Assembly: GCF_947494875.1 (NCBI RefSeq)
Contig: NZ_CANLWM010000004.1
Coordinates: forward strand, 62,001-126,000
From: an uncultured Williamsia sp.
Lineage (GTDB): Bacteria; Actinomycetota; Actinomycetes; Mycobacteriales; Mycobacteriaceae
Direction of reading: 5' to 3'
DNA length: 64,000 bases
Shown piece after piece: positions 10,083 to 51,982 of this stretch (its first letter is position 1; the number at the start of each line of letters is the position of its first letter). The notes under the pieces are model-generated. The model saw only the letters and a list, made by a program, of their open reading frames with translations, made no database searches and was not told the origin of the DNA. The position numbers and the translations under genes are program-made.

Positions 10083-10101
10083 GGCCCCATCTTGACATTC
10101 C

Positions 10102-10116
10102 TGGAACGTCGTTCCA
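10102..10116. promoter_or_regulatory. TetR operator, copy 1
   Basis: Perfect palindrome TGGAACGTCGTTCCA with 7-bp arms around one base, 20 bp before the repressor ATG. It is paired with the copy at 10133-10149; centres are 32 bp apart. Confidence 0.75.
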
Positions 10117-10132
10117 AACTCGGTCACGAGCA

Positions 10133-10149
10133 CTGGAACGCCGTTCCAG
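10133..10149. promoter_or_regulatory. TetR operator, copy 2
   Basis: Perfect palindrome CTGGAACGCCGTTCCAG with 8-bp arms. It has the same core as copy 1 apart from the central base and lies 20 bp before the monooxygenase start. Two copies about three helical turns apart suggest two repressor dimers on one DNA face. Confidence 0.78.
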
Positions 10150-10168
10150 CACGGCGAAGGGAGACAGT

Positions 10169-30968: not shown

Positions 30969-30984
30969 GACCCCGGAGCTGATC

Positions 30985-31153
30985 CGCCGAGCGTGCCAGA
31001 ACCAGCCGCCGAGTGGGCCGAAAACACACGCGGTCCCGCCATCGTGGGGCGTCTGCACGCTCGGCGTGACTTGTCTGCACGGTCGACGGGATCTTCCGCA
31101 CGCTCGACGCGGTGTTTCGGCACGCTCGGCGAGGTGTATTGGCCCGCTCGGCG
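30985..31153. repeat. Inverted array of ~22-bp tandem units at a convergent gene junction
   Basis: Two reverse-oriented units (cores CGCCGAGCGTGC at 30985 and CGCCGAGTGGGC at 31007) face five forward units whose 12-bp cores start at 31055, 31077, 31098, 31120 and 31142 (consensus GCACGCTCGGCG). Steps are 22, then 22, 21, 22 and 22 bp. The roughly 10 bases between cores vary freely. A 36-bp spacer separates the blocks. Cores of opposite blocks can pair, giving alternative hairpins. The array fills the gap between the stops at 30968 and 31169. No coding potential is credible. Function unknown; a bidirectional terminator or a protein-binding array are the options. Confidence 0.85.
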
Positions 31154-31168
31154 GCGGGTGAGGCCGGC

Positions 31169-47358: not shown

Positions 47359-47421
47359 GGTGGTCTCTTCTCCGTGGTGCGAGTGGATGCGTCGACGGTC
47401 GGTCTGGCATCCTGACAACGA

Positions 47422-47440
47422 AGCGGAACGCTGTTCCGCT
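47422..47440. promoter_or_regulatory. TetR operator, copy 1
   Basis: AGCGGAACGCTGTTCCGCT, perfect 8-bp arms around GCT, 64 bp before the aldo/keto reductase start. Confidence 0.8.
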
Positions 47441-47455
47441 CACATCCGAGACGAT

Positions 47456-47472
47456 ACGGAACGCTGTTCCGT
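47456..47472. promoter_or_regulatory. TetR operator, copy 2
   Basis: ACGGAACGCTGTTCCGT, perfect 7-bp arms around GCT, same core as copy 1; centres 33 bp apart. It lies 28 bp before the TetR start. Confidence 0.8.
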
Positions 47473-47499
47473 TTGCCAAGTGGCAGTGAGGAGGCCGCC

Positions 47500-48146: not shown

Positions 48147-49841
48147 ATGGACCGCAGGCGCAGGGCGTTCGACCGCCGCACATTCGTCAAGGCCACCGGC
48201 GTGGGCGCCGCGGCGGCGTACCTCGGGGCGAAGCTGTCGCCCTTCGCGTGGGCCGAACCCGCGGTGTCACGGGCGGCGTCGATCGCGGGCACCACGCTCG
48301 ACGTCGTCGGTGTGCCCGCTGCGACCGGGCCGAAGCAGTACCGCAAGCTCGTCGCCGGGGCGGGATGGCCGCTCATCGTGCGGTCGGAGCTCGCGGCCCC
48401 GAAGGCGGGTCGCGACGACCGTCGCGTGGGCCTCGCGTCCGTCGTGCAGACCACCGACGTCCACATCGTCGACGCGGAGAGTCCGGTGCGCGCGGAGTTC
48501 ATCCACCTGCAGAACGGGTCGGCGTTCCGTCCGCACGAGAAACTCGGCCCGCACGGGGCGATCACCCTCGTCGAGCGCATCAACGCTCTCGGATCGTCCC
48601 CGTTCACCGGGCGCCGGTTCGATGCCGTCGTCTCCACCGGTGACAACACCGACAACCACGAGTTCGCCGAGCTCGACTGGTTCCTCACCGTGTTCTCCGG
48701 CGGCCGTTTCCAGCCGTCGACGGGTGACCTGAACCGGTACGAGGGCGTGCAGGTGTGGGGGTCGACGCTGTACTGGCAGCCGGAGACCACGGTGAACGAC
48801 ATCTACAAGCAGAAGGGCTTCCCGCAGGTCCCCGGTCTGCTCTCGTCGTCGATCACCCCGATCCAGAGCCCGGGCCTGAACACGCGCTGGTACAGCGTGT
48901 TCGGCAACCACGACGACAGCGTCGAGGGCACGCTGCCCAGCGGGATCGCGTTCATCGACGCGCTCTACACCGGCGACATCAAGATCGACCTGCCGCAGGA
49001 CCGTCGTCAGATCGACGCGATGGCACGCGTGTTCGGTACCGATCCCTACGCCGCCGGCAAGGTGTTCGCCGCGCAGGTCGCGTCGGGACCGATCCGGAAG
49101 GTGACGCCTGACGCGCGGCGCGCACCGTTCACGCCGCGGCAGTACATGGCCGAGCACTTCCGCCCCCGGTACACCGGTCCGGGACCGGTCGGGCACGGAT
49201 TCGCCGCCGACGCACCGCAATCGGGGATCACCTACTACTCGTTCGAGATCGCCCCCGGTGTCGTCGGGCTGTCGATGGACACGACGAACCACGCCGGGTT
49301 CACCGACGGATCGATCGGGCAGGGCCAGCTCGACTGGATGGAGCGGCTGATCACCCGCAACCGCGACACGCTGTTCGTCGCGTTCAGTCACCACACCAGC
49401 GACACCATGGAGCTGCCGATCCCCGACCCCGAGCGCCCCCTCGAGCCGCGTCGGACGGGCAAGCAGCTCGTCGACTTCTTCCACCGGTTCCCGAACGTGG
49501 TGGCGTGGGTCAACGGGCACACCCACGAGAACAGGATCACCCCGCACGTCGGACCGACTCCCGCGCAGAGCTTCTGGGAGATCAACACCGCGTCCCACAT
49601 CGATTTCCCGCAGAACGCGCGGATCCTCGAGGTCTGCGACAACAAGGACGGGACACTGTCGCTGTTCTGCACCCTGATCGAGTCGGCTGCGCCCTACTCG
49701 GTCGACTACGCCGACCACTCGATCACCGGCCTGGCGTCGATGTACCGCGAGTTCTCCTACAACGACATCGGATACGAGGCCAAGCGGCTCGGCGGTGCCA
49801 CCGACCACAACGTCGAACTGCTGCTGACCAACCCGCGCTGA
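48147..49841 (+). CDS. Exported metallophosphoesterase (TIGR03767/PPA1498 family-like)
   Basis: 564 residues. A Tat signal (RRTFVKATGVGAAAAYLGAK, residues 10-29) is followed by a calcineurin-like core: TTDVHI (DxH), STGDNTDNHE (GDxxD), FGNHDD, FSHHTS and NGHTHENR supply all metal ligands. The length and Tat leader fit the PPA1498 family as I recall it. It probably hydrolyses a phosphoester or nucleotide outside the membrane; the substrate is unknown. ATG 48147 follows GAGAGGGACGAG. It ends 39 bp before an inverted repeat array. Confidence 0.9.
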   Translation: MDRRRRAFDRRTFVKATGVGAAAAYLGAKLSPFAWAEPAVSRAASIAGTTLDVVGVPAATGPKQYRKLVAGAGWPLIVRSELAAPKAGRDDRRVGLASVVQTTDVHIVDAESPVRAEFIHLQNGSAFRPHEKLGPHGAITLVERINALGSSPFTGRRFDAVVSTGDNTDNHEFAELDWFLTVFSGGRFQPSTGDLNRYEGVQVWGSTLYWQPETTVNDIYKQKGFPQVPGLLSSSITPIQSPGLNTRWYSVFGNHDDSVEGTLPSGIAFIDALYTGDIKIDLPQDRRQIDAMARVFGTDPYAAGKVFAAQVASGPIRKVTPDARRAPFTPRQYMAEHFRPRYTGPGPVGHGFAADAPQSGITYYSFEIAPGVVGLSMDTTNHAGFTDGSIGQGQLDWMERLITRNRDTLFVAFSHHTSDTMELPIPDPERPLEPRRTGKQLVDFFHRFPNVVAWVNGHTHENRITPHVGPTPAQSFWEINTASHIDFPQNARILEVCDNKDGTLSLFCTLIESAAPYSVDYADHSITGLASMYREFSYNDIGYEAKRLGGATDHNVELLLTNPR

Positions 49842-49879: not shown

Positions 49880-50025
49880 GTCGGGCGGCAGGAGCAGTTG
49901 GTTGGGCACCAGGAACCGTCTGTTGGGCGGCAGGAACAATCGGTTGGGCGGCCGGGACTTCGCCGGCGTCCTGACCGCCCAACGAACGGTTCCAACTGCC
50001 CAACGAGCGGTTCCTGGTGCCCAAC
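49880..50025. repeat. Inverted array of 21-bp tandem units at a convergent gene junction
   Basis: Four forward units (16-bp cores at 49880, 49901, 49922 and 49943, consensus GTTGGGCGGCAGGAAC) face three reverse units (cores at 49968, 49989 and 50010). Every step within a block is exactly 21 bp. The blocks are 9 bp apart and can fold on each other: unit 2 pairs with the last reverse unit over 18 bp without mismatch, and units 3 and 4 pair with the other two less perfectly, giving an arm of about 57 bp. It lies between stops at 49841 and 50075. No coding potential is credible. Function unknown. Confidence 0.88.
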
Positions 50026-50074: not shown

Positions 50075-51982
50075 TCACACGTTCGCGGCGGTGACAGACG
50101 GTGCTTCGGGGTCGTCGGCGAACTGCGTGCGGTACAGCTCGGCGTAGCGGCCGTTCTGGGCGAGCAAGGACAGGTGCGTGCCGCGTTCGACGATCCGACC
50201 GGCCTCGAGCACCAGGATCTGGTGGGCCGCACGGACGGTCGACAGGCGGTGGGCGATGACGATCGACGTCCGTCCCACCAGCGCCTCGGCGAGCGCCTCC
50301 TGCACGGCGGCCTCCGACGTCGAGTCCAGGTGCGCGGTCGCCTCGTCGAGGATCACCACCGACGGTGCCGCGAGGAGCAGCCGCGCGATGGTGAGTCGCT
50401 GACGCTCCCCGCCGGACAGTCGGTAGCCGCGCTCGCCGACGACGGTGTCGAGACCGTCGGGCAGCGAGGCGATCAGCTCGTCGAGCCGGGCGCGACGCAG
50501 CGCCGCCCAGATCTCCTCCTCGGAGGCGCCGGGATTCGACAGCAGCAGGTTGTCCCGGACGGAGTCGTGGAACAGATGACCGTCCTGCGTGACGAGACCG
50601 ACGGCCCGGTGCAGCGACTGCGACGTCACGTCCCGCACGTCGAGGTCGTTGACCCGTACGGCACCGGCGTCGACGTCGTAGAGGCGCGTCGCCAGCTGCG
50701 CGATGGTCGACTTGCCGGCGCCGGAACTGCCGACGAGAGCGACCATCTCGCCGGCGGGCACCTCGAACGAGATGTCGTGCAGGACATCGACGCCGCCGCG
50801 GGTGTCGAGCGCGGCGACCTCCTCCAGCGACGCCAACGACACCTTGTCCGCCGACGGGTAGGCGAACCGCACGTCGGAGAACCGCATCGACAGCGGGCCC
50901 TGCGGGACGGGGACGGCGTCGGGCTTGTCGTCGATGAGGGGGACCAGGTCGGTGACCTCGAAGACGCGCTCGAAACTGACCAGAGCACTCATGATCTCGA
51001 CGCGGGCGTTGGCCAGCGCGGTGAGCGGGGCGTACATGCGCGTCAGCAGCAACGCGAGGGAGACGACCGCACCCGCGTTGAGATGGCCGTCGACGGCGAG
51101 CACACCGCCGAGCCCGTAGACGAGGGCCAGGGCGAGCGCCGAGACCAGCGTGAGCGCGGTGACGAAGTACGACTGCGACATCGCGCGCGCGACACCGACG
51201 TCGCGGACCTGGGCGGCGCGGTCGGAGAAGCGCCGCGACTCCTCGTCGGGCCGGCCGTAGAGCTTCACCAGCGTCGCGCCGGGCGCCGAGAAGCGTTCGG
51301 TCATCTGCGTGGACATCTGCGCGTTGTACTCGGCCGCCTGCCGCGAGAGCGCCGCCATCCGGCGCCCCATCAGTCGCGCGGGGATGACGAACACCGGCAG
51401 CAGCACGAGCGCCAACAGCGTGATCTGCCAGGAGATGAGCAGCATCGTGGTGAGGGTCAGCGCCAGGGTCACGATGTTCGACACGACGCCCGAGAGGGTG
51501 TCGGAGAAGGCGCGCTGCGCGCCGATGACGTCGTTGTTGAGGCGGCTCACCAGGGCGCCGGTCCGGGTGCGGGTGAAGAACGCGATCGGCATGCGCTGCA
51601 CGTGGTCGTAGACGGTGCGCCGGAGGTCGAGGATCAGCCCCTCACCGATCGACGCGGACAGCCACCGCACGATGAGACCGACACCGGCCTCGGCGAGTGC
51701 GACCACGGCGATGACGAGCGCGAGCCACATGATCGTCTCGGTGGACCCGTGTCCGGTGATCTGGTTGACGACCCGCCCCGCGAGGATCGGCGTCACCACC
51801 GTCAGCACCGCCGTCACGACGGACAGAGCGAGGAAGACCGCGATCATGCGGCGGTGGGGGCGGGCGAAGGCGGCGATCCGCCGCACCGTCGACCGTCGCG
51901 TGCCCTTGGGCAGCTTCGACGGCCTCCGGCTCGCCGACAGGCCGCGATACATCGTGTTGTAGGCGACCGATTCCATGGTCAT
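50075..51982 (-). CDS. ABC exporter, fused permease and ATPase
   Basis: 635 residues. Six membrane helices (about 45-340) form a type I exporter domain; the ATPase has Walker A GSSGAGKST (about 415), the signature LSGGERQRL, Walker B VVILDEATAHLD and the H-loop IVIAHRLST. It works as a dimer, exporting lipids, peptides or drugs. ATG 51982 has TACTGT 7 nt upstream, so a leaderless transcript is likely; ATG 51976 is possible. A 16-bp palindrome lies just upstream. It is divergent from an aldo/keto reductase gene and converges on the inverted repeat array. Confidence 0.94.
   Translation of the reverse strand: MTMESVAYNTMYRGLSASRRPSKLPKGTRRSTVRRIAAFARPHRRMIAVFLALSVVTAVLTVVTPILAGRVVNQITGHGSTETIMWLALVIAVVALAEAGVGLIVRWLSASIGEGLILDLRRTVYDHVQRMPIAFFTRTRTGALVSRLNNDVIGAQRAFSDTLSGVVSNIVTLALTLTTMLLISWQITLLALVLLPVFVIPARLMGRRMAALSRQAAEYNAQMSTQMTERFSAPGATLVKLYGRPDEESRRFSDRAAQVRDVGVARAMSQSYFVTALTLVSALALALVYGLGGVLAVDGHLNAGAVVSLALLLTRMYAPLTALANARVEIMSALVSFERVFEVTDLVPLIDDKPDAVPVPQGPLSMRFSDVRFAYPSADKVSLASLEEVAALDTRGGVDVLHDISFEVPAGEMVALVGSSGAGKSTIAQLATRLYDVDAGAVRVNDLDVRDVTSQSLHRAVGLVTQDGHLFHDSVRDNLLLSNPGASEEEIWAALRRARLDELIASLPDGLDTVVGERGYRLSGGERQRLTIARLLLAAPSVVILDEATAHLDSTSEAAVQEALAEALVGRTSIVIAHRLSTVRAAHQILVLEAGRIVERGTHLSLLAQNGRYAELYRTQFADDPEAPSVTAANV

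Follow-up and report, generated by a model that had tools for sequence, protein, structure and literature searches.

REP, BIME and REPIN elements are dispersed intergenic repeats that are found in both orientations, frequently between convergent genes, and are associated with RAYT transposases. In Neisseria, DNA uptake sequences double as transcription terminators where short words, arranged as one inverted pair and accompanied by a T-run, lie at the 3' ends of genes. Plasmid iterons are direct repeats of about 20 to 22 bp that lie in helical phase and are bound by one protein.

A further class consists of bacterial tandem repeats of constant size, 20 to 23 nt, and variable sequence (Subirana and Messeguer, PMC8161180). 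In the part of that account considered here, several families occur per genome, most are species-specific and non-coding, and they are found in many bacteria, including Actinobacteria; the repeats carry a short conserved word, and their function is given as unestablished. Its authors relate the repeat length to two helical turns and suggest either a protein that polymerises on DNA or small RNAs, and their detection rule asks for at least four repeats in tandem. Our literature search found no account of intergenic repeats of this kind in Williamsia. Here, we analyse one such array and its relatives, starting from a window of 64,000 nucleotides (the whole stretch of DNA that was analysed) of a Williamsia genome, G000.

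Results

The array occupies positions 49880 to 50025 of the window, between two convergent genes. On the left, a calcineurin-like phosphoesterase gene (PF00149; 48147..49841, forward strand) has its stop at 49841, 38 bp before the first forward unit, while on the right an ABC transporter gene (PF00664 and PF00005; 50075..51982, reverse strand) has its stop at 50075, 49 bp from the reverse block. The coordinates confirm the layout and the flanks given in an earlier note on this DNA: four forward and three reverse 16-bp cores, spaced in steps of 21 bp, meet around a centre of 9 bp. The forward units are GTCGGGCGGCAGGAGC (49880..49895; a degenerate outer copy, score 18.6), GTTGGGCACCAGGAAC (49901..49916; 24.5), GTTGGGCGGCAGGAAC (49922..49937; 24.5), and GTTGGGCGGCCGGGAC (49943..49958; 20.7). 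Past the centre (49959..49967) follow, on the reverse strand, a degenerate inner unit (49968..49983; 15.6), GTTGGGCAGTTGGAAC (49989..50004; 25.9), and a second copy of GTTGGGCACCAGGAAC (50010..50025; 24.5). Of the core proposed in that note, the exact form GTTGGGCGGCAGGAAC is found in one unit only, with the other six differing from it at 2 to 4 of the 16 positions. Tandem Repeats Finder scores of 91 and 72 at the array exclude chance. As an inverted repeat, the array has arms of 58 bp, 1 bp longer than first estimated, that are 79% complementary and stand 9 bp apart, and the inverted-repeat arms also contain the reported 18 perfect pairs at the outer end. We considered a CRISPR and rejected it, as the inter-core stretches are 5 bp, there are no spacers, and the neighbours are the phosphoesterase and ABC transporter genes. 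Elsewhere in the window, pairs of short palindromes (GGAACGYCGTTCC and GGAACGCTGTTCC) lie 32 to 33 bp apart between divergent genes, at 10083-10168 and 47359-47499, and are possibly operators.

To place the array among others, we searched its own genome and further Williamsia genomes (G001, G003, G004, and G005). Used as a query, the array gave 58 matches in G000. A two-unit pattern, with up to two mismatches, gave 98 hits in G000, 143 in G005, and 35 in G001, the reversed-pattern control giving 2 in each. The single 16-bp core, also with up to two mismatches, showed no excess (484 matches versus 456 in the control), and isolated units are therefore indistinguishable from chance. With a weight matrix, at least 32 arrays of this type, termed alpha, were recognised in 28 stretches of G000, namely the window and 27 loci (L-numbers) fetched around hits; alpha arrays are those within such stretches, and two of the 27 (L062 and L065) hold none. 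The alpha unit reads GTTGGGC-RSYN-GGARC-CGTTC, positions 1 to 7, 12, 13, and 16 being nearly fixed in a matrix that was seeded with those letters. Its leading heptamer, GTTGGGC, which belongs to the seed, is conserved at 85 to 99% per position. Blocks are short, mostly of two to nine units, and within them 266 of 271 steps in three genomes are exactly 21 bp, even though the 16-mers of adjacent units differ, on average, at 2.6 positions.

The heptamer extends across the genus. Three copies of GTTGGGC at 21-bp steps, with up to one mismatch, are present in all eight Williamsia genomes, with 18 to 96 matches each against 0 or 1 in the control. Among 293 sampled genomes of the family outside Williamsia, four have one match each, and the reversed pattern hits 13 of those genomes. 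Two further units, GTTGGGCCSTCGTTYC-YCCGT (beta) and GTTGGGCACGTAGACC-CGCCA (gamma), are present in G003 and G004 in an identical layout that keeps both GTTGGGC and the 21-bp step; as these were found by way of the heptamer, its presence in them is partly built in. Free of this bias are the units of Williamsia sp. CHRR-6 (L071), which were found by place, after the orthologous phosphoesterase gene, and which include GTTGGGCGGTAGTCCCCGTCG; they too have the heptamer.

Some arrays lie within or around genes. One alpha array is inside a reading frame (L042 3938-4016; G000 C2:432637-432715), between TerD and AIM24 domains, where it reads as a PTAPAAQ linker, and the homologous stretches in G005 (L106) and G001 (L125) also hold units; in G004, a gamma array (L204) lies within a long called frame. 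A unit equals seven codons and these two arrays (L042 and L204) fall inside called frames, but repeats that code for protein were rejected as the explanation, as the array studied here lies between two called genes. At four loci, genes of 0.7 to 0.9 kb stand between a forward and a reverse block (L040 3208-4015, L041 4449-5405, L057 4096-5084, and L185 2593-3513). L098, a relative of L040, lacks the gene and its blocks face each other directly, as if array centres were insertion sites.

A closer look at the neighbouring genes shows that the blocks have a polarity. On gene calls from a home-made caller, checked against the list of open reading frames around the studied array, 90 of 109 blocks of at least two units have the same sense as the gene that lies 5' to them (38/45 in G000, 36/45 in G005, and 16/19 in G001). 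The median distance of blocks past the stop is 24 to 48 bp, and 80 of the 90 blocks that follow the sense rule are within 100 bp. Random placement would give agreement in at most about half, as among 157 intergenic stretches of at least 40 bp at the same loci, 72 have a forward gene on the left and 60 a reverse gene on the right. The binomial p values of 1.6e-6 (G000), 3.3e-5 (G005), and 2.2e-3 (G001) are only a guide, because facing blocks at one place are not independent. The 19 exceptions include one block with no called gene, at least five upstream of a multicopy HNH-like gene (L048, L055, L100, L120, and L127), and four in a pair of orthologous loci with divergent genes (L058/L109). Of the 32 alpha arrays in G000, 17 are one-sided, 14 are facing, and 1 is back to back. 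With so many arrays one-sided, the facing layout is that of two gene ends meeting; 10 of the 14 facing arrays are between convergent genes, compared to 30 of 157 intergenic stretches at the same loci and in the window. A duplicate locus, L070 (identical to L114), was left out of these counts and of the covariation and ortholog-choice counts below, but stayed in the measurement that gave the back-to-back gaps.

The distance between facing blocks is itself quantised. We measured the offset D between the final forward 21-mer and the 21-mer that opens the reverse block, which equals the gap plus 11, such that the 9-bp centre of the studied array sets D = 20, about two helical turns. With ortholog groups assigned by hand and the G000 member taken first, 18 independent facing alpha arrays have D values of 20, 20, 21, 31, 32, 32, 40, 41 (four times), 42 (twice), 52, 62, 75, 76, and 94. 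Their spacing follows multiples of about 10.5 bp (R = 0.83), with little sign of a 21-bp period (R = 0.30), and supports the helical phase that the earlier note had guessed to be selected. Among periods of 7 to 25 bp scanned, the best was 10.5 to 10.75, with p <= 2.5e-4 after scanning, the floor of the test, while no phase is seen in a control distance, that between the stop and the first unit (R = 0.22, n = 37). The result held at five unit-score cut-offs (n = 18, 18, 18, 16, and 16, the last two being the strictest), and in 2000 random choices of orthologs R(10.5) was at least 0.70 and R(21) at most 0.51. An 11-bp period fits as well as 10.5, and hence the period alone cannot tell B-form DNA from A-form RNA. 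For alpha units, a decayed 21-bp lattice as the sole cause was rejected on the low R(21); as 7 of the 18 offsets lie about half a unit off such a lattice (residues 10 to 13), decayed units are not the whole cause of the phase.

Orthologous arrays were compared in 13 cases. In six of them, the change in D comes within 2 bp of a whole number of turns (-1, 10, -11, -20, -22, and 23), and in three it misses by about 3 bp (-56, -39, and +66); the four offsets that did not change are neither for nor against a phase. In G003 and G004, 12 of 12 facing offsets are 0 or -1 modulo 21 (R(21) = 0.99), as read by hand in 12 of 20 stretches with orthologs uncollapsed and with overlapping centre units in L194, L196, and L201 leaving a choice. 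By itself, the phase in these two genomes may have been left behind by a 21-bp lattice. Where blocks stand back to back (a reverse block followed by a forward one), the gaps measure 19 (L052), 18 (L101), 19 (L104), 19 (L121), and 21 bp (L130); this narrow range differs in phase from that of facing blocks, in few cases, some of which are orthologs.

The array could also act as RNA. On this account, transcripts from either gene would fold the facing blocks into a long hairpin and end transcription in both directions without a T-run. The predicted fold is indeed very stable, at -98.2 kcal/mol versus a shuffle mean of -62.2 (z = -8.6), facing arrays lie mostly between convergent genes, and the centre of some gamma arrays is a near-perfect short palindrome. 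However, facing units of equal rank do not covary: over six variable positions they match at 0.462 versus 0.505 when blocks are reshuffled among arrays (p = 0.97), and with G-U pairs allowed there is still no covariation (p = 0.96). Adjacent units in one block, in contrast, match at 0.675 versus 0.495 for units of other loci. As facing units match no better than chance, the two blocks seem to evolve separately. The hairpin can still form, because both blocks use one motif and the fixed positions pair anyway, but it does not look selected, in that pairing is apparently not what the variable positions are kept for. Further, 17 of the 32 arrays have no facing block, and the loop of an RNA hairpin would not be expected to vary in size by helical turns, as it does here. 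We therefore set aside the RNA hairpin as the selected form on the covariation result and the one-sided arrays, and the folded arm described in the earlier note is not supported as the working form.

No terminator with a T-run was found between 49600 and 50300, and the array, despite its hairpin, does not have the makeup of an intrinsic (Rho-independent) terminator. In two pairs of orthologous loci, a terminator that looks canonical by eye adjoins the array, which is thus not needed there as a terminator. Rfam returned only two sub-threshold miRNA matches at the studied array (22.6 to 22.7 bits versus gathering thresholds of 88 to 90) and none at the arrays of eight further loci; away from arrays, L045 has a match to 5' ureB sRNA. 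Taken together, we regard a bidirectional RNA terminator as improbable.

We also followed the same gene end in relatives. Williamsia serinedens has a phosphoesterase 96% identical to this one, and W. deligens one that is 91% identical. At the orthologous gene end, the array of W. serinedens consists of five forward units and three reverse ones, again around a centre of 9 bp, whereas W. deligens has no array (L066). Absence from all close relatives, which the earlier note had named as grounds against its reading, is thus not what we find. In a Williamsia metagenome bin, the orthologous gene end (L067, about 85 bases from 7729) has facing elements whose sequence is different (GCGCTCC...) and which, as judged by eye, are separated by about 19 bp. 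Overall, arrays are kept at many orthologous gene ends, with unit number and sequence changing between species.

Such turnover raises the question of functionless satellite DNA, in which tandem slippage and recombination would spread units from one gene end to another, at places that tolerate insertions well. The likeness of adjacent units within a block, the varying unit number, the empty gene end of W. deligens, and the arrays inside reading frames are all as expected of a satellite. Neutral turnover, though, predicts neither a polarity in the sense of the gene nor offsets quantised at half a unit, nor the persistence of one heptamer throughout the genus when the remaining 14 bp vary. We consider a satellite without function unlikely.

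A multicopy HNH-like gene of about 423 aa, which we take to be of the DUF222/13E12 group, lies just downstream of alpha units, in the same sense, in 6 of 8 copies in G000, 3 of 5 in G001, and 5 of 7 in G005. Its match to HNH is below the Pfam cut-off (13 to 14 bits versus 21.4). This proximity of close copies to alpha units would suit a reading in which the units belong to the gene family and are spread or used by it as REP elements are by a RAYT transposase. Yet in G000 only 6 of the 8 copies have an array, which leaves most of the 32 arrays without a close copy next to them. In G001, a syntenic copy has no array, and nine homologues in five other Williamsia genomes have no upstream array by eye (one being partly masked), though these genomes are rich in arrays. 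We therefore set the HNH-like gene aside as a general driver and hold it very unlikely that the units belong to its family. G000 has 16 matches to HNH-like genes, in three subfamilies by eye, and two further copies of the multicopy gene (L139 and L225) have what, by eye, resemble variant reverse units. In L133-L148 (G000) and L217-L229 (G001 and G005), the HNH-like genes share an upstream TTGTSCACAG, which is like a DnaA box, and a leaderless promoter-like TTGTCGG...ACACATG.

A second array in the window (30969..31168) has a different unit, CGYCGAGCGTGC, with two forward and five reverse units, and it also lies between convergent genes. This is array 1 of the earlier note, which took the two layouts to be the same, and its presence is confirmed here; its steps are of 21 or 22 bp. 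Of 56 matches to the family, we read the best 20. In the 19 arrays read, steps of 21 (42 times) and 22 bp (43 times) make up 85 of 87, with 44 and 47 bp seen once each; the sense rule holds for 96 of 112 units. A search for two CGYCGAGCGTGC cores 22 bp apart gives 2 to 42 hits in each of the eight Williamsia genomes; among 113 other genomes, 12 have one or two hits. Tolerance of both steps fits a rule of two helical turns, and the eight facing offsets (38, 71, 29, 30, 29, 25, 51, and 38) fit a common phase only partly. Several matches are within about 2.4 kb of contig ends in G000 (C1, C6, C7, C8, and C10); the repeats may therefore break the assembly, making array counts lower bounds.

Discussion

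We read the array as two independent blocks of sites for a putative DNA-binding protein of the genus, which would hold one face of the helix with facing blocks in register and would most probably form a polar barrier or boundary; for this reading as a whole, we see an even chance. The protein would recognise one GTTGGGC per 21 bp, or per two helical turns, and could stack on a single face of the DNA. For each block, the reading direction would be that of the gene ahead of it. Where genes converge, the blocks point at each other, and a helical register kept between them would allow the two protein stacks to touch across the centre. As likeliest effect, the stacks may be a barrier that keeps RNA polymerase leaving either gene out of the other; packing of the nucleoid at gene ends would be an alternative. 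That transcription is what is affected we infer from place and polarity. A protein on one helix face would explain together the two-turn steps, the shared heptamer, the polarity, the independence of the blocks, and the turn-wise offset.

More tentatively, the arrays may be parts of one polar boundary system of Williamsia, in which a putative genus protein that recognises GTTGGGC would line one face of the helix at gene ends, with transcription setting its orientation, and converging stacks would dock across a centre kept in register, so that the barrier would be encoded in the sequence; this fuller picture is possible but doubtful. We looked for the protein through an autoregulated operator, GTTGGGC and GCCCAAC separated by 0 to 30 bp, which in this genome occurs only at the centre of the studied array (one site, seen on both strands; control 6).

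The Williamsia arrays share features with each of the systems introduced above. Like REP, BIME, and REPIN elements, they are dispersed, occur in both orientations, and are found between convergent genes; unlike them, they are phased direct repeats, and the multicopy gene that neighbours some of them is HNH-like. With the Neisseria uptake pairs they share conserved words inverted at the 3' ends of genes, while differing in being helix-phased arrays. They resemble iterons in their phased direct repeats of about 21 bp and differ in having at least 32 places in the genome, often as facing pairs at gene ends, and no single origin.

The likeness is broad to the repeats of 20 to 23 nt, as far as the considered part of their description goes (PMC8161180). 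Unit length is constant in Williamsia, with alpha steps of 21 bp and a CGYCGAGCGTGC family at 21 or 22 bp; the families are variable (alpha, beta, gamma, and the 22-bp family) and nearly confined to Williamsia among the genomes sampled; and a short word is conserved, here GTTGGGC. As to the rule of at least four tandem repeats, the studied forward block has four units and the reverse block three, and many arrays have two or three. In contrast to that class as described there, the Williamsia blocks take their orientation from the gene before them, stand opposite one another where genes converge, and are offset in steps of about one helical turn. The words 'convergent', 'orientation', and 'terminat' are absent from PMC8161180, and in the part of it considered here we found neither polarity nor a phase from block to block. 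Relative to the known repeats, as represented by that text, gene polarity and the helical-turn phase between blocks are thus new. The Williamsia repeats give the 20-to-23-nt class a polarity, set by the gene followed, and a physical ruler of about one helical turn that also holds between blocks. As the repeats have both, they point to a protein on double-stranded DNA rather than to RNA, which makes the question directly testable.
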